From: Actinospica acidithermotolerans
GTDB lineage: Bacteria > Actinomycetota > Actinomycetes > Streptomycetales > Catenulisporaceae
Reading direction: 5' to 3'
DNA: 40,260 nt
Assembly (NCBI RefSeq): GCF_018139625.1
Contig: NZ_JAGSOH010000071.1
Location: 1-40,260, forward strand
The translations under genes were made by a program, and so were the position numbers. Shown piece by piece: positions 5,810-20,123 of the stretch. The notes under the pieces are model-generated. The model was given only the letters and a program-made list of their open reading frames with translations, ran no database searches and was not told where the DNA came from. Every line of letters begins with the position of its first letter. Positions within the stretch are counted from its first letter, which is position 1.

Positions 5810-6451
5810 ATGCGTATCCACGTCGCCGACCACCCGCTGATCGCCCACAAGCTCACCACGCTGCGCGACCAGCAGACCGACTCACCGACCTTCCGTCGGC
5901 TGGCCGACGAGCTCGTGACGCTGCTCGCCTACGAGGCCACCCGGGACGTCCGGGTATCCCCGGTCGAGATCGTTACACCTGTGGCGCCCACCACAGGCGT
6001 CCGGCTGGCCGCCCCCAAGCCGCTGGTCGTGCCGATCCTGCGGGCCGGCCTCGGCATGCTGGACGGCATGGTCCGGCTGCTGCCGACCGCCGAGGTGGGC
6101 TTCCTCGGCATGGTGCGCGACGAGGGGACGCTGACCCCGTCCACCTACGCCACGCGGATGCCGGACGACCTCTCCGGCCGGCAGTGCTACGTGCTGGACC
6201 CGATGCTGGCGACCGGCGGCACGCTGATCGCCGCGGTGAACCTGCTCGCCTCGCGCGGCGCCGAGGACGTCACCGCGATCTGCCTGCTGGCCGCCCCCGA
6301 GGGCATCGCGGCGATGGAGAAGGCGCTCGGCGACTCGAGCGTGCCTGTGACGGTCGTCACGGCCGCCATCGACGAGCGGCTCAACGAGCACGGCTACATC
6401 GTCCCGGGCCTCGGCGACGCCGGCGACCGGCTCTACGGCGTGGCCGGCTGA
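5810..6451 (+). CDS. upp: Uracil phosphoribosyltransferase
   Basis: Pyrimidine salvage enzyme: uracil + PRPP gives UMP + PPi, in the cytoplasm. The 213 residues match the usual 208-214. The PRPP-binding loop DPMLATGGT is at 130-138. '[10 protein letters not shown]' (78-87), 'GMVRDEGTL' and the C-terminal uracil-recognition region '[16 protein letters not shown]' are all present. The start ATG 5810 lies about ten bases from a TACACT -10-like hexamer, so the leader is very short. Transcribed alone and followed by a terminator. Confidence 0.96.
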
Positions 6452-7843: not shown

Positions 7844-8902
7844 CTAGATGGTTGATGCCTGGATCGGTGCAGCTCAGGTTGTGTTCAGTGGTCGTAAGCG
7901 ATCAGTGAGCGCTTGTGGGCTGCACCGATTCGCCAGTTGTGCCAGATGGCGGTGTTCAGGGCGAGTAGGCGCTGGATGACGCGGGTGAACAGTCCGTCGG
8001 GCTGGTGTGCGCCGGGATGCTCGATGCCGAGCTGGCCCTTTAGGGACTCGATCACGGATTCGACCCTTTGCCGCAGCCACTGGGGATACACCCCGGGATC
8101 GGCCTCGTTCTCGTACGGTTCGCGTACGAGCGTCAAGCCCAGATCACGCAGTTCGGTGGCGAACGGGCGGGAGCGAAAGCCCTTGTCCGCTACGACCGTC
8201 GTGCCGGGTGCCGGACGGTTCGCCGGCACGGCGAACATCATCCGTGCCGCCTCGACCTCGCCGTGCTGCTTGGGGCTGAACAGCGCGAATCCGGTCACCA
8301 ACCCGTCCGCGGTGACCAGCAGCAGCAATCTCATCCCCCAGAAGTACAGCGAGTGCGAGGCGTCGTAGCCGTACCCGCAGTACCCGAACAGGTTCGAGCG
8401 CTTGACCGTCTCCCGCGACATACCACAGATGATCTTGGTGGAGTCCATCAACCGCACCACGTCGAACGACGTGGCGGTGTGCTCGGCCAGGTACCTCATC
8501 GCCTGGAGCATCAGAGCGCTGAGCGCACGCAGCCTGCGGTTGTACTTCGGTTGCGACAGCAGGCGCGGGAACAGGTGCCCGACCAGTTTGGGCGCGGCCC
8601 GCAGCCACCGACGCTCGGATCCATAGCCCAGATGCGCCTGCGCAACGGCCAGGCAGACCAGCTCGGCGTCGGTAACGTGCGGGGCAGCGCCAAGCGCGGG
8701 CCTGGCGAATCCGAGTGAAGGCATGAGCTGATCGGTCAGCTCCACGTACAGTGCAATCAGAAGGGTGTCCAAGTCGGCGTCCACGGCAACCTCGCAGGTG
8801 AGCCTGGGTTAGATACGCCGATCGTGGACACCCTTCGTGATCCACCGGGAGCAAACCGAAGATCCGCAATCCCTACGCCAACCCCCGGCATCAACCATCT
8901 AG
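7844..8902 (-). mobile_element. IS982-family insertion sequence
   Basis: A complete IS of about 1051 bp (7848-8898) bounded by the 12-bp perfect terminal repeat ATGGTTGATGCC / GGCATCAACCAT. Both ends are flanked by CTAG (7844-7847 and 8899-8902), either a 4-bp target duplication or, since CTAG is palindromic, an extension of the terminal repeats. No longer flanking duplication is visible. It carries one transposase gene on the minus strand. The right copy of CTAG provides the TAG stop codon of the neighbouring gene. Confidence 0.85.
7885..8784 (-). CDS. IS982-family transposase
   Basis: A 299-residue DDE transposase, full length. N-terminal 'LDTLLIALYVELTDQL' and 'VTDAELVCLAVAQAHLGYGSERRWLR' are typical of the family. 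Catalytic residues appear in 'LMDSTK' (D), 'VVADKGF' (D) and 'VESVIESLKGQLG' (E). The tail 'RLLALNTAIWHNWRIG ... RSLIAYDH' is the characteristic ending. No frameshift or stop is present, so the element may still be active. Confidence 0.93.
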   Translation of the reverse strand: MDADLDTLLIALYVELTDQLMPSLGFARPALGAAPHVTDAELVCLAVAQAHLGYGSERRWLRAAPKLVGHLFPRLLSQPKYNRRLRALSALMLQAMRYLAEHTATSFDVVRLMDSTKIICGMSRETVKRSNLFGYCGYGYDASHSLYFWGMRLLLLVTADGLVTGFALFSPKQHGEVEAARMMFAVPANRPAPGTTVVADKGFRSRPFATELRDLGLTLVREPYENEADPGVYPQWLRQRVESVIESLKGQLGIEHPGAHQPDGLFTRVIQRLLALNTAIWHNWRIGAAHKRSLIAYDH

Positions 8903-16059: not shown

Positions 16060-16081
16060 ATTCTGTTCTGGACAGCAGAAT
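16060..16081. promoter_or_regulatory. Candidate IclR operator
   Basis: The 72-bp divergent intergenic region holds a 22-bp imperfect palindrome with half-sites ATTCTG (16060-16065) and CAGAAT (16076-16081). A further GTTCTGAATC (16087-16096) forms an inverted match to GATTC at 16059. Location and symmetry fit an IclR-type operator that serves both promoters. Inferred from position only. Confidence 0.45.
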
Positions 16082-16122
16082 TGGTTGTTCTGAATCTGGC
16101 GCTGACGGCCACCATAGCCGCT

Positions 16123-17262
16123 ATGAGCGCCGTTCACTCGCCGATCAGCCTGAAGGCGGTCGATTCGCCCGACCAGCCGGACGTCACGCCGGCACTGGAG
16201 CGGCTGTACCGCGGCTTCGAGCAGGAGCTGCTGGTCCCGCTGTGGACCGAGATCGGCGGACTCATGCCGGCTCATCCGCGCAGCCGCGCGGTCCCGCACG
16301 TGTGGCGGTGGGAGAAGCTGCGGGCGCTGGCCGCGCAGGCCGGGGAGATCGTCCCGGTCGGCCGCGGCGGCGAACGACGAGCCATCGCGCTCGCGAACCC
16401 GGCGCTCGGCGGCCGGCCGTTCGCCACGCCGACGCTCTGGGCGGCGATCCAGTACCTGATGCCCGGGGAGGACGCGCCCGAGCACCGGCACACGCAGCAC
16501 GCATTCCGCTTCGTCGTCGAGGGCAGCGGCGTGTGGACCGTCGTCGGCGGCGACCCGGTCCCGATGAACCGCGGCGACTTCCTGCCGCAGGCCGGCTGGA
16601 ACTGGCACGCCCACCACAACGCGACCGCCGAGCCGATGGCGTGGATCGACGGCCTCGACATCCCGTTCCAGTACCTCGCCGAAGCGCAGTTCTTCGAGTT
16701 CGGGCGTGACCAGATCGGCGACGAGGAGCGGATCACCCCGGCCCGATCCAGGTCCGAACGGCTGTGGGGGCACCCGGGGCTGCGCCCGCTTTCGGCCGAG
16801 CACGCCGGTCCCGGCACGCCGCTCCTGTCCTACAAGTGGCAGTACACGAATGCCGCGCTCGCCGATCAGCTGCTGCTGGAGAAGGAGGGGTTCGGCGGCA
16901 CCGTCGAGCCCGGCCACGCGGCGGTGCGCTTCACCAACCCGAACGACGGCTCCGACGTGCTGCCGACCATCCGCGCCGAGTTCCACCGCGTCGCCCGCGG
17001 CGCCGAGACGGCTCCCGTGCGCGAGACGGGCTCCTCGGTCTACCAGGTCTTCGACGGCTCGGGCGTCGTGACGGTCGGCGACGCCTCCTGGTCCGTCGCC
17101 CGCGGCGACCTGTTCGTGGTGCCGTCCTGGGAGCCCTTCTCCGCCAAGTCCGAGGCCGGGAGCACCGACTCGGACGAGGGCGCCCTCGATCTCTTCCGTT
17201 TCTCCGACGCGCCGGTCTTCGACGCGCTCCGGCTCCACCGATCCCAGAAGGATGCCCGATGA
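16123..17262 (+). CDS. Gentisate 1,2-dioxygenase
   Basis: A bicupin Fe(II) enzyme that cleaves gentisate to maleylpyruvate with O2. It has 379 residues from ATG 16123 (MSAVHSPISL). First cupin: H121-x-H123 in 'PEHRHTQHAFRFVVEGSG' and H162-A-H in 'NWHAHHN' are the likely iron ligands. 'WRWEKL' and 'RRAIALANP' upstream are typical of the family. Second cupin: 'VYQVFDGSGVVTVGDASWSVARGDLFVVPSW'. Its last codons overlap the FAH gene (ATGA), so it is translationally coupled. First gene of the operon downstream of the IclR operator region. Confidence 0.92.
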   Translation: MSAVHSPISLKAVDSPDQPDVTPALERLYRGFEQELLVPLWTEIGGLMPAHPRSRAVPHVWRWEKLRALAAQAGEIVPVGRGGERRAIALANPALGGRPFATPTLWAAIQYLMPGEDAPEHRHTQHAFRFVVEGSGVWTVVGGDPVPMNRGDFLPQAGWNWHAHHNATAEPMAWIDGLDIPFQYLAEAQFFEFGRDQIGDEERITPARSRSERLWGHPGLRPLSAEHAGPGTPLLSYKWQYTNAALADQLLLEKEGFGGTVEPGHAAVRFTNPNDGSDVLPTIRAEFHRVARGAETAPVRETGSSVYQVFDGSGVVTVGDASWSVARGDLFVVPSWEPFSAKSEAGSTDSDEGALDLFRFSDAPVFDALRLHRSQKDAR

Positions 17263-18095: not shown

Positions 18096-18742
18096 CCGTG
18101 GCTCGCACCTTCTCCCACGCACGGCAGTGGATGACGCAGGGTACGAAGCTGTTCCAGGACGCGCTCGCCGGTCTCGACGGTCTCGACGAGGAAAGATTCG
18201 CTGCGCCCTCATTACTGCCGGGCTGGAACCGTAAGCAGCTCATCGCGCACGTCGCGGCCAATGCGGAGGCGATCAGCAACCTGATCCACTGGGCCGCGAC
18301 CGGCATCGAGACCCCGATGTACCGCACCCCGCAGGTCCGTGCCGACGGCATCGCCAAGGGGCTGACGCTGTCCGGCCAGGAGCTCGCGCGGTGGACTCGC
18401 GAGTCCGCGGACGGGCTCGCCGAGGCGATGGATCGACTGAGCGGGAAGCAGTGGCGGCACGAGGTCGTCACTGCTCAGGGCCGCACGGTCCGCACCACCG
18501 AGACGCCGTGGATGCGCGCTCGCGAGGTCTGCGTTCACGTCGTCGATCTCGGCACCGGCGTCTCGTTCGCCGATCTGCCCGACGACTTCAACGCGGCCCT
18601 AACCGCCGACATCCTCGCCAAGCGCGGCATGGCGGAGATTCCCGGCGCTCTCGCCGAAGCGCCGCAGCCGGAGGTGACGGCGTGGCTCGCCGGGCGTCCG
18701 CACACGCTGACCTACGCACCCGACCTCGGTCCCTGGCTCTGA
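18092..18742 (+). CDS. Mycothiol-dependent maleylpyruvate isomerase
   Basis: 216 residues from GTG 18092, overlapping the hydrolase stop (GTGA); GTG 18098 is an alternative start. The DinB-like four-helix domain is recognised by 'ARQWMTQGTKLF', 'LLPGWNRKQLIAHVAANAEAISNLI' and 'TPWMRAREVCVHVVDL'. The histidines in these last two motifs are the metal ligands of the MDMPI family. It isomerises maleylpyruvate to fumarylpyruvate with mycothiol as cofactor, which is consistent with an actinomycete host. It links the dioxygenase and the hydrolase, so the lower gentisate pathway is complete here. Confidence 0.9.
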   Translation: MTVARTFSHARQWMTQGTKLFQDALAGLDGLDEERFAAPSLLPGWNRKQLIAHVAANAEAISNLIHWAATGIETPMYRTPQVRADGIAKGLTLSGQELARWTRESADGLAEAMDRLSGKQWRHEVVTAQGRTVRTTETPWMRAREVCVHVVDLGTGVSFADLPDDFNAALTADILAKRGMAEIPGALAEAPQPEVTAWLAGRPHTLTYAPDLGPWL

Positions 18743-18758
18743 AGCGGAATGAGATGAC

Positions 18759-19148
18759 CTGAGCGAGCTGACCACCCCGGACGTGATCGTCGTGGGCGGC
18801 GGGATCGGCGGCCCCGGCGCGGCGTATTCGCTGACCCGGGCACCGCTTGCGGGTGCGCGTGCTGGAGCAGGCCTCGTCCTTCGGCGAGGTCGGGGCCGGC
18901 ATCCAGCTCGCGCCCAACTGCACCCGCATCCTCGACGACTACGGCCTGCTCGACGAGGCGGGGCACCTCGAAGGTGCCGCCCGCGAGCAACGCAACGCGC
19001 TGCTCGCGGGCGGTCCACCCACGACTACTCGTTCATCGACTGGCTCTACGGCCCGACCGCGCTCTTCCCGGTGGACGAGCCGCCGATGTTCGAGCCGATC
19101 CCGCTGGACTCCGCGTCGCGCGCGGCCTCTGTTGGCACTGCCAGGTGA
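18759..19148 (+). pseudogene. Remnant of an FAD-dependent aromatic hydroxylase (3-hydroxybenzoate 6-hydroxylase-like)
   Basis: Only about 130 codons of a normally ~400-residue flavin monooxygenase remain. The FAD-binding start 'DVIVVGGGIGGPGAAYSLTRA' is in one frame. The next part, 'LRVRVLEQASSFGEVGAGIQLAPN' and 'CTRILDDYGLLDEAGHLEG', is shifted by one. A large internal part is missing; the sequence jumps to 'AAREQRNALLAGG' and, in the first frame again, a C-terminal-looking 'HDYSFIDWLYGPTALFPVDEPP'. No good start codon is left. It is the last gene of the gentisate operon, where such a hydroxylase would make gentisate. The exact substrate is inferred from context. Confidence 0.82.
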
Positions 19149-19198: not shown

Positions 19199-19294
19199 TC
19201 AGGCGATGCCGAGCTCGGCGAACGCGACGGCCATCGCGGCGATCGAGGCAAGGATCGCCACGGCGATGACGAAGACCACTCCCCGGGAGACCAT
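19199..19294 (-). CDS. 31-residue membrane peptide coupled to the SsgA-like gene
   Basis: ATG 19294 overlaps the TGA stop of the SsgA-like gene by one base (TGATG). The product is MVSRGVVFVIAVAILASI followed by AAMAVAFAELGIA: a single strong membrane helix with an Arg near the N-terminus. Too small for family assignment. Stop/start overlap and consistent codon use suggest a real gene. Confidence 0.5.
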   Translation of the reverse strand: MVSRGVVFVIAVAILASIAAMAVAFAELGIA

Positions 19295-19695
19295 CAGCCC
19301 GTCATCTCCTGGAAGAGCTGGTCGATGTCCCACTGCTCGGGTTCGGCGCCCTCGGGCACCATCACGTAGGTCAGCCGCAGGAACTCCCGGAGCTCCTCGA
19401 CCGGCACGGCGACGAGGTCGCACAGGCCGTCGGTGTGCAGTTCGAGCATCACCGCCTTCTCACCGAGCGGCCAGACCTTCAACCGCCCCTCGCCGACCGG
19501 GGCTCGGACGCCGGCGGCGAGCATCTCCCGGTCGAACCACCAGACCGAGTCCTCGCCCCACAGGTCCTCGTCCAGGAACTGCAGCGTCACCGCGTACGGA
19601 TCGGCGGTGTCGTAGTGCAGCGCGACCTCGTCGTCCAGGCAGCCGGCCTCGCCGGCGATCACCTTGGCGTTCAGCTCCGCCGTAATGATGGGCAT
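19294..19695 (-). CDS. SsgA-like sporulation / cell-division protein
   Basis: A 133-residue SALP (SsgA-like protein), full family length, from ATG 19695. Conserved features are 'ALHYDTADPYAVTLQFLDE', 'VWWFDREMLAAGVRAPVGEGRLKVWP' and 'LHTDGLCDLVAVPVEELREFLRLTYVMVPEG'. SALPs occur only in morphologically complex actinomycetes and steer septum placement, peptidoglycan remodelling or spore separation; SsgB recruits FtsZ. Which SALP this is cannot be fixed by eye. A perfect CRP-type palindrome lies 118 bp upstream of the start. Downstream, a 31-codon membrane peptide is coupled to it. Confidence 0.9.
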   Translation of the reverse strand: MPIITAELNAKVIAGEAGCLDDEVALHYDTADPYAVTLQFLDEDLWGEDSVWWFDREMLAAGVRAPVGEGRLKVWPLGEKAVMLELHTDGLCDLVAVPVEELREFLRLTYVMVPEGAEPEQWDIDQLFQEMTG

Positions 19696-19812
19696 GAGGG
19701 ACTTCCGTTCCCCGGCGGCCCGTCGGCCGCGATCGGCTGCCGCGCCGATTGGCGCGGCACCCAATCGACCCCGCTCGGAGCCGTTCATTACGCGGGTTTC
19801 GCAGATCAGCGA

Positions 19813-19828
19813 TGTGATCCACGTCACA
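19813..19828. promoter_or_regulatory. Perfect CRP-type palindrome upstream of the SsgA-like gene
   Basis: TGTGATCCACGTCACA: TGTGA-N6-TCACA, exact CRP/GlxR consensus half-sites, extended by A/T to an 18-bp palindrome (19812-19829). It is centred about 125 bp upstream of the SsgA-like start on the minus strand. Actinomycete Crp proteins bind this motif, and Crp in Streptomyces affects germination and development. Confidence 0.6.
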
Positions 19829-19903
19829 TGAGATCTGCTCCACCGTCAGGCCGGCCACGTAGTGCAGCACGAGCACGCGCCGCTGCTCCCGAAGTCTGCT
19901 CAC
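19829..19903 (-). pseudogene. Fragment of a sigma factor region 4
   Basis: A 25-codon stretch, VSRLREQRRVLVLHYVAGL then TVEQIS, resembles the start of sigma-70 region 4 (LPxxQRxVLVLHYVxGLTVEQIA) of SigE-like ECF factors. Sense ends abruptly at the CRP-type palindrome, and no regions 2 or 3 are found upstream. Probably a gene relic; could be chance. Confidence 0.4.
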
Positions 19904-19995
19904 TAACGTGCGCCGGCAAGAGCACACTGCATGGTCGACCCGTCCTGGCGAATACATGCCGTACGTCACACCGCCGAAGGGCCGAGAGGCGAAGA

Positions 19996-20031
19996 AAAAG
20001 GCCAGATGAGCTGTGATCGCTCATCTGGCCT
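19996..20031 (-). terminator. Terminator of tRNA-Arg
   Basis: Perfect 13-bp stem AGGCCAGATGAGC (19999-20011) / GCTCATCTGGCCT (20019-20031). On the minus strand it is followed by TTTTTC, a textbook intrinsic terminator. Confidence 0.92.
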
Positions 20032-20050
20032 GCGTTTTCATCCTGCTGAG

Positions 20051-20123
20051 TGCGCCCGAAGGGATTCGAACCCCTAACCTTCTGATCCGTAGTCAGATGC
20101 TCTATCCGTTGAGCTACGGGCGC
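20051..20123 (-). tRNA. tRNA-Arg (anticodon ACG)
   Basis: Minus strand: acceptor GCGCCCG / CGGGCGC with discriminator A, D-arm TAGCTCAACGGATAGAGCA, anticodon arm CTGAC-TACGGAT-CAG, and T-arm AGGGG-TTCGAAT-CCCTT. Anticodon ACG makes it the expected substrate of the TadA deaminase encoded at 3644-4084. CCA is not encoded. Confidence 0.95.

Follow-up and report, generated by a model that had tools for sequence, protein, structure and literature searches.

A gene for an SsgA-like protein (SALP) in Actinospica acidithermotolerans is preceded by a palindrome of the Crp/GlxR type, and the question that this locus raises is whether the palindrome controls the gene. The initial annotation had described the site as exact, and this description holds. 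In a pattern search of the window (the whole stretch of 40,260 nt that was analyzed), the candidate site TGTGATCCACGTCACA, to which no strand is assigned, lies at positions 19813 to 19828 and matches TGTGA-N6-TCACA at 10 of 10 positions. The SALP gene is on the minus strand, and the near end of the palindrome is 118 bp and its center 125 bp upstream of the ATG.

The palindrome and the SALP gene

Within the window, TGTGATCCACGTCACA is the sole match without a mismatch. When up to two mismatches are allowed, 7 matches are found versus 7.3 expected, so the looser matches are at chance level; a site with one mismatch (9/10) at 6346 to 6361 has no SALP gene near it. Across the genus, the exact palindrome occurs at 9 places in the genome that contains the window (7,888,256 bases in 422 contigs) and at 5 and 3 places in two congeners, for a total of 17, compared to 1 for the reversed pattern (0, 1, and 0 places) and 2 for a composition-matched control palindrome (1, 1, and 0 places). 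The exact palindrome is enriched genome-wide in this genus. Judged by reading the loci, some of the exact sites occur again at apparently corresponding places in two or three of these genomes (L028/L035/L030, L037/L040/L033, L043/L029, and L044/L032/L036), with identical or almost identical letters and in similar surroundings; these sites are likely to mark other members of a Crp regulon.

The genome that contains the window has five HTH_Crp_2 loci. One encodes a protein with a full-length match to Mycobacterium tuberculosis CRP (E = 5.5e-83), with further matches to structures 4cyd, which we take to be GlxR (E = 6.1e-78), and 2pqq, presumably a Streptomyces coelicolor protein (E = 2e-68). This protein and M. 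tuberculosis CRP have GASRETVNKALADF in common, and the RETVNKAL stretch of M. tuberculosis CRP has a role in reading DNA. Judged by these matches, the genome encodes a Crp/GlxR ortholog with a matching DNA-reading helix. The Crp regulon of S. coelicolor, with the consensus GTG-N6-GNCAC, was reportedly described by Gao et al. in 2012; the locus resembles that system in that the palindrome fits this consensus on the plus strand and in that an orthologous Crp is encoded in the same genome.

The SALP gene (19294 to 19695, minus strand; ATG at 19695, stop codon ending at 19294) encodes 133 amino acids with a match to Pfam SsgA (E = 4.4e-24; 84.7 bits versus a cut-off of 25), and two solved structures of the SsgA family, 6slc (E = 1e-15) and 3cm1 (E = 4e-11), match the protein as well. 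Against the NCBIfam SsgD equivalog model NF052496, it scores 93.4 bits, below the cut-off of 185 bits that L088 and L089 pass and that L087 (179 bits) and L086 (171 bits) narrowly fall short of. In a tree of 40 rows, from which we left out 11 SALP rows (ten near-identical SsgB-type rows and the divergent L068) plus L006, which is the same gene as L086, the protein falls in a 17-row clade (support, 88/79) with L060, the second non-SsgB SALP of the same genome, the Catenulispora SALPs, and Streptomyces SsgD and its relatives. The row of the window is a long branch, and the clade was delimited after the box scores given below were known. When L060 is removed, the window protein groups with the Catenulispora SALPs (77/81) and remains in the 17-row clade's counterpart (80/87). 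From its clade membership and its score of 93 bits against 185, we take the protein to be probably SsgD-like, and not SsgD itself. It shares a clade with L088, L089, and the tree neighbor L094 (box scores of 9, 8, and 8) as a likeness to SsgD, a regulator of spore wall synthesis, and differs from SsgD in lying far below the equivalog cut-off. The match to 3cm1 places it in the same protein family as SsgB, the SALP that recruits FtsZ, and this genome has a separate SsgB-type gene on contig C368.

Close relatives of the protein are few. At 1e-22, one other genome among 391 of the order matches it, at 42% identity; there is no other match among 14 genomes of the family at 1e-30 or among 394 genomes of the class at 1e-22. 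Since only one other genome of the order matches, footprinting of the site across orthologs is impossible, and the conservation of the box that we describe below is conservation at related promoters, not at an ortholog of the window gene. A contig scan, sensitive to close relatives only, returned two distant metagenome SALPs. With regard to a possible mobile SALP gene, a phage collection gave a single match, an unannotated record of 5 kb, and 38 plasmid records matched, with identities of at most 40% among the 30 matches listed.

On the far side of the palindrome, and reaching it, is what probably remains of an ECF sigma factor gene (region 4 of the SigE family; 19826 to 19909, minus strand). 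The similarity is weak and below curated cut-offs (Pfam E = 0.0017; 62% over 29 amino acids to a sigma factor of the same genome, E = 0.0099). Compared with the ECF sigma factor that is divergent from L060, the remnant gives no meaningful match, and because it is also SigE-type and runs in the SALP gene's own direction, it is unlikely to have been left by a sigma gene of the L060 type. Farther upstream are an intrinsic terminator (19999 to 20031, minus strand), which is strong and about 170 bp from the palindrome, and the tRNA-Arg(ACG) gene that it follows (20050 to 20123, minus strand). The initial annotation had held that a site downstream of an unrelated terminator and without effect on SALP transcription would speak against Crp control. 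Half of this applies: the strong terminator does lie upstream of the site, but it belongs after tRNA-Arg and leaves the SALP gene in need of a promoter of its own.

The flank of this tRNA-Arg gene differs in a congener and in a sister-genus genome. By reading, the congener (G002; L008, 1 to 670) has an apparent tyrosine recombinase gene at the same tRNA-Arg, and the sister-genus genome (G003; L009, 170 to 215) has different sequence that includes a partial tRNA-like repeat. From the recombinase gene and the partial repeat in these relatives, we read the flank as an apparent integration site, and a genomic island at tRNA-Arg is plausible. In the window, the 3' end of tRNA-Arg has no second copy that would make an attachment-site pair. 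Elsewhere in the window, an open reading frame at 7885 to 8784 (minus strand) reads like an insertion-sequence transposase. At 18783 to 19148 (plus strand), two open reading frames without a Pfam hit look, by motif reading, like a truncated, frameshifted FAD monooxygenase of the 3-hydroxybenzoate 6-hydroxylase type; they end a cluster resembling a gentisate pathway, with a cupin open reading frame at 16081 to 17262 and an MDMPI domain in the open reading frame ending at 18742.

Box and spacing at related SALP genes

At class II Crp promoters, the box is centered about 41.5 bp upstream of the transcription start and about 30 bp upstream of the point where the -10 element begins, leaving about 21 to 22 nt between the box and the -10. 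In the window, the 10/10 box is followed after 22 nt by TAATGA (19785 to 19790, minus strand), a -10-like element that agrees with this spacing and would form part of a putative class II promoter. Six SALP promoters that we take to be from the sister genus Catenulispora (L059, L061, L062, L063, L064, and L066) all have a Crp-like box of 8 to 10 matches, then exactly 22 nt, then TAAGGT in the place of the window's TAATGA, while their proteins are 33 to 39% identical to the window protein. TAAGGT fits the -10 hexamer TAnnnT, and TAATGA lacks the final T; a sigma-70 consensus scan of the window found no promoter-like site. In the same genome, L060 (contig C328) has a 9/10 box, 21 nt, and TAATGC, and L087, inferred to be from Streptomyces, has a 10/10 box, 22 nt, and TAATGC. 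That SALPs of 33 to 39% identity keep the spacing from box to -10-like element suggests that the predicted regulation outlasts protein sequence.

The similarity to the Catenulispora promoters extends into the spacer. Across the 34 bases that follow the box, the window is identical in register to L059, L061, L062, L063, L064, and L066 at 17, 19, 19, 19, 20, and 19 positions, respectively, compared with 7 to 11 identities when the alignment is slid by one base either way; of 20,000 shuffles, 0.21% reach the in-register score for L059 and at most 0.01% do so for the other five. These six promoters are near relatives of each other and not independent tests. With L060, the window has 9 identities, or 13 of 34 at a shift of -1 (reached by 6% of shuffles), and so the resemblance of L060 lies in the layout more than in the letters.

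We scanned 795,768 strand-bases for a box of at least 8/10 followed after 20 to 24 nt by TAA[GT]G, passing over boxes in which the C and the A of the right half-site are both wrong. There were 17 hits at 10 distinct places, every one of them in the region upstream of a SALP gene (nine genes in all) and none elsewhere. The window accounts for six hits because loci overlap there, L060 for two in each direction, and L087 and the six Catenulispora loci for the others; the DNA scanned is not a neutral sample of a genome, since many of its loci were chosen for a SALP gene or for the palindrome. Of the seven boxed Streptomyces SALPs, L087 alone has TAA[GT]G 20 to 24 nt after the box; it is absent from the other six (L086, L088, L089, L093, L094, and L095), as it is from the boxed Nonomuraea gene L101. 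In four SsgD-type Streptomyces genes (L088, L089, L093, and L094), we observed GTGCAC (ATGCAC in L088) 10 nt after the box, replacing the TAA[GT]G at 22 nt.

We also scored the box itself across the family. Searches with PF04686 found 24 SALPs in 14 genomes of the family (three genera; E ≤ 1e-10) and 16 in four further genomes of the order (E ≤ 1e-8), and nine plasmid-borne SALPs from named organisms were scored out of 39 matching plasmid records. The score is the best match out of 10 within the 450 bp that precede the domain match (238 bp for L047). The six Catenulispora non-SsgB SALPs score 10, 9, 8, 9, 9, and 9, the window SALP and L060 score 10 and 9, and the Streptomyces genes L087, L088, L089, and L086 score 10, 9, 8, and 8. 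The plasmid genes score 10 (Streptomyces clavuligerus), 9 (Nonomuraea), 8 (Streptomyces fungicidicus), 8, and 8, with four at 6 to 7. Ten remaining surveyed SALPs are at 6 to 7, and L004 and L005 are at 6. In total, a box of at least 9/10 is found upstream of 11 of 51 SALPs, 5 of these 11 being near-copies from Catenulispora, and other DNA of the family (107,571 bp) contains five boxes at 8 and none of at least 9/10. For every box of 9 to 10 among the SALPs of the two genome surveys, the real score is reached by 0 or 1 of 200 shuffled regions. The boxes of 8 at L062, L086, and L089 are reached by 16 to 50 of 200 (25%, 12.5%, and 8%, respectively), so an 8/10 box alone is little proof.

The SsgB-type genes behave differently from the window gene in this survey: among 18 from the two full surveys, none has a box above 8/10 (8/10 in 7, 6 to 7 in 11), and the SsgB-type gene of the window's own genome is at 6/10. 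An 8/10 Crp-like match 287 to 288 bp upstream of the SsgB-type gene is conserved in seven Catenulispora genomes (L049 to L055). We judged it too distant from the gene to count as a Crp box; shuffles of these regions reach 8/10 in 8 to 15% of cases.

On the tree, boxes of at least 8 are found in 15 of the 17 rows of the SsgD-like clade versus 4 of 23 outside it, and boxes of at least 9 in 10 of 17 versus 1 of 23; L091 and L092 are the SsgD-like rows without a box, and L101 lies outside the clade with a box of 9/10. The label "below 8" requires 5 changes on the tree versus a mean of 13.6 (as low in 0 of 500 shuffles), the label "at least 9" requires 7 versus 9.7 (14 of 500), and the label "8" requires 6 versus 7.5 (47 of 500). 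When rows were merged into lineages, by hand and with the scores already known, boxes of at least 8 were found in 9 of 11 lineages in the clade versus 3 of 19 outside (Fisher test, P = 0.0012) and boxes of at least 9 in 6 of 11 versus 1 of 19 (P = 0.0045).

At five of the six Catenulispora loci (L059, L061, L063, L064, and L066, but not L062) and at L060, the SALP gene is divergent from an ECF sigma factor gene, with the Crp box between them. In the two divergent sigma proteins that were scanned, region 2 is above the cut-off and region 4 is weak, and the Catenulispora protein also has a weak zf-HC2 match. On the sigma side of the box, 5 of 6 Catenulispora loci carry TACCAT at a distance of 22 to 23 nt, and L060 carries TAAGGT at 23 nt; L059 has neither. 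It is possible that one Crp box serves two promoters as a bidirectional module. The shared sigma neighbor suggests that L060 is the likely ortholog of the Catenulispora gene and that the window gene is a diverged extra copy; in the window, the -10 on the sigma side is absent and the SALP side is kept.

The 31-codon reading frame after the SALP gene

A hydrophobic open reading frame of 31 codons (19199 to 19294, minus strand) follows the SALP gene, its ATG overlapping the SALP stop codon by one base (TGATG). Its best 19-residue hydropathy is 2.88, and none of the 159 first-start open reading frames of 20 to 60 amino acids in the window, a set to which it does not belong because its first-start frame is 74 amino acids long, reaches 2.0. 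Together with a GC3 of 0.94, this hydropathy suggests that the frame is truly coding, and it could be translated from the SALP message by termination-reinitiation. In 50 other SALP genes (26 plus 25 loci, L006 and L086 being one gene), we found no open reading frame of 20 to 80 amino acids with a hydropathy of at least 1.6 that starts from -20 to +100 of the stop codon, and the peptide has no match in plasmid records, Pfam, or NCBIfam. The initial annotation had proposed a coupled membrane peptide as a possible anchor or regulator. The reading frame, its overlap, and its hydrophobicity are convincing, and the role stays a guess, since the peptide follows none of the other 50 genes. That the two form a translationally coupled pair in which the peptide tethers the SALP to the membrane has the TGATG overlap, the GC3, and a hydropathy far above that of the window's other small reading frames in its favor, and we consider it very unlikely in view of the absence of such a frame after other SALP genes and of any match in the collections searched.

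Candidate Crp control and its alternatives

As a full explanation of these observations, a class II Crp-dependent promoter of the SsgD-like SALP gene is the one that we favor and hold to be probable. In this promoter, the palindrome would be bound by the genome's Crp (GlxR-like) protein and would act with TAATGA 22 nt downstream, so that Crp, centered near -41.5 to -42.5, would touch RNA polymerase directly. The effect would be activation rather than repression and would depend on cAMP, and the SALP would have a role in wall assembly. The promoter would be one of a conserved set that drives SsgD-like SALPs in Catenulisporaceae and at least one Streptomyces, a set in which, at L060 and at most of the Catenulispora loci, the same box also has a divergent ECF sigma gene on its other side; the window copy would be a paralog, presumably arising by duplication, that diverged at the tRNA-Arg locus, keeping the SALP side of the promoter and losing the sigma partner. 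In its putative geometry, with the box centered about 41.5 to 42.5 bp before the start and the -10 at 21 to 22 nt, this promoter resembles the class II Crp promoters of the Escherichia coli galP1 type. It differs from them in having a SALP gene as its target, in being predicted from sequence, and in the imperfect -10 elements TAATGA and TAATGC.

The palindrome could instead be an accident, made of region 4 codons that remain where an ECF sigma gene decayed at a tRNA-Arg scar, and without a role in transcription of the SALP gene; the adjoining sigma fragment and the terminator upstream had first led us to expect this. The sigma similarity does run to the edge of the palindrome, the tRNA-Arg flank does differ in the congener and the sister genus, and the control palindrome predicts about one exact site per genome. 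An accident would leave unexplained the 34 downstream bases that match six SALP promoters in register, the 22-nt spacing to TAA[GT]G that the window has in common with them, and the recurrence of the box at other SsgD-like SALPs; we dropped this explanation after the in-register match and judge it quite unlikely. A different possibility is that the box is real and is bound by another protein of the Crp/Fnr family, or that Crp represses from it, with the divergent ECF sigma gene as the main target in relatives. The five HTH_Crp_2 loci leave room for another binding protein, the box stands between the SALP and ECF sigma genes at 5 of 6 Catenulispora loci and at L060, and a TACCAT or TAAGGT lies 22 to 23 nt away on the sigma side at 6 of those 7 loci (not L059). 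In addition, one study describes thicker spore walls in crp mutants of S. coelicolor (PMC5693915), which would suit repression and with which simple activation of a wall-building gene fits poorly. Against this, the best Crp paralog carries the RETVNKAL stretch, the window has no -10 on the sigma side and has kept the SALP side, and the spacing fits class II activation. We consider this alternative unlikely.

Crp control of the SALP gene, as the initial annotation had proposed it, is thus upheld in part: the box, the distance to the -10-like element, and part of the spacer recur at Catenulispora SALP promoters, L060 and L087 share the layout more than the letters, and a Crp ortholog is encoded. 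Because the same site and spacing precede related genes in other soil actinomycetes, the box is probably a real control switch, and the proposed link between Crp and SALP genes is probably right and wider than could be seen from the window. The further proposal, that the site connects cAMP signaling with septation or sporulation, is better placed at the SsgD-like, spore wall SALPs than at septation, for which the SsgB-type genes offer no box above 8/10.

To our knowledge, the wall or division genes that are directly under Crp are only partly known. Within the parts of the literature surveyed on Crp, cAMP, and SsgA-like, ssgB, ssgR, or ssgD genes, a scope that does not include the principal ChIP study of Crp (Gao et al. 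2012), we found no report of Crp control of a SALP gene, and in this respect the window differs from the S. coelicolor Crp regulon, where, that study excepted, no SALP is named as a target. Two Crp papers do not contain "ssg" in the main text (PMC8212052, PMC10033298). DNA-affinity capture with the S. coelicolor ssgA, ssgB, ssgG, and ssgR promoters recovered ten proteins, none of them Crp (PMC4457907). Such an outcome is in line with the survey, in which SsgB-type genes have no good box, and since ssgD was not among the baits, the study is silent on SsgD-like genes; we rejected it as evidence against Crp at those genes. A genome review states that Ssg proteins other than SsgB have no meaningful hits outside Streptomycetaceae (PMC4255298).

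S. coelicolor requires Crp in order to germinate and to form normal spore walls (PMC5693915). A broader reading of the promoters described here, which we put forward tentatively and at somewhat less than even odds, is that cAMP-Crp is a direct and ancient regulator of SsgD-like SALPs across Streptomycetaceae and Catenulisporaceae, with one box driving a bidirectional pair of ECF sigma and SALP genes in Catenulisporaceae. If this is true, the nutrient or cAMP state of the cell would be tied to wall assembly at sporulation or germination, and the window would contain a duplicated SALP gene that took its half of the promoter with it to a tRNA locus. The Crp box singles out SsgD-like genes as specific candidate targets, which laboratory Streptomyces strains make amenable to testing.
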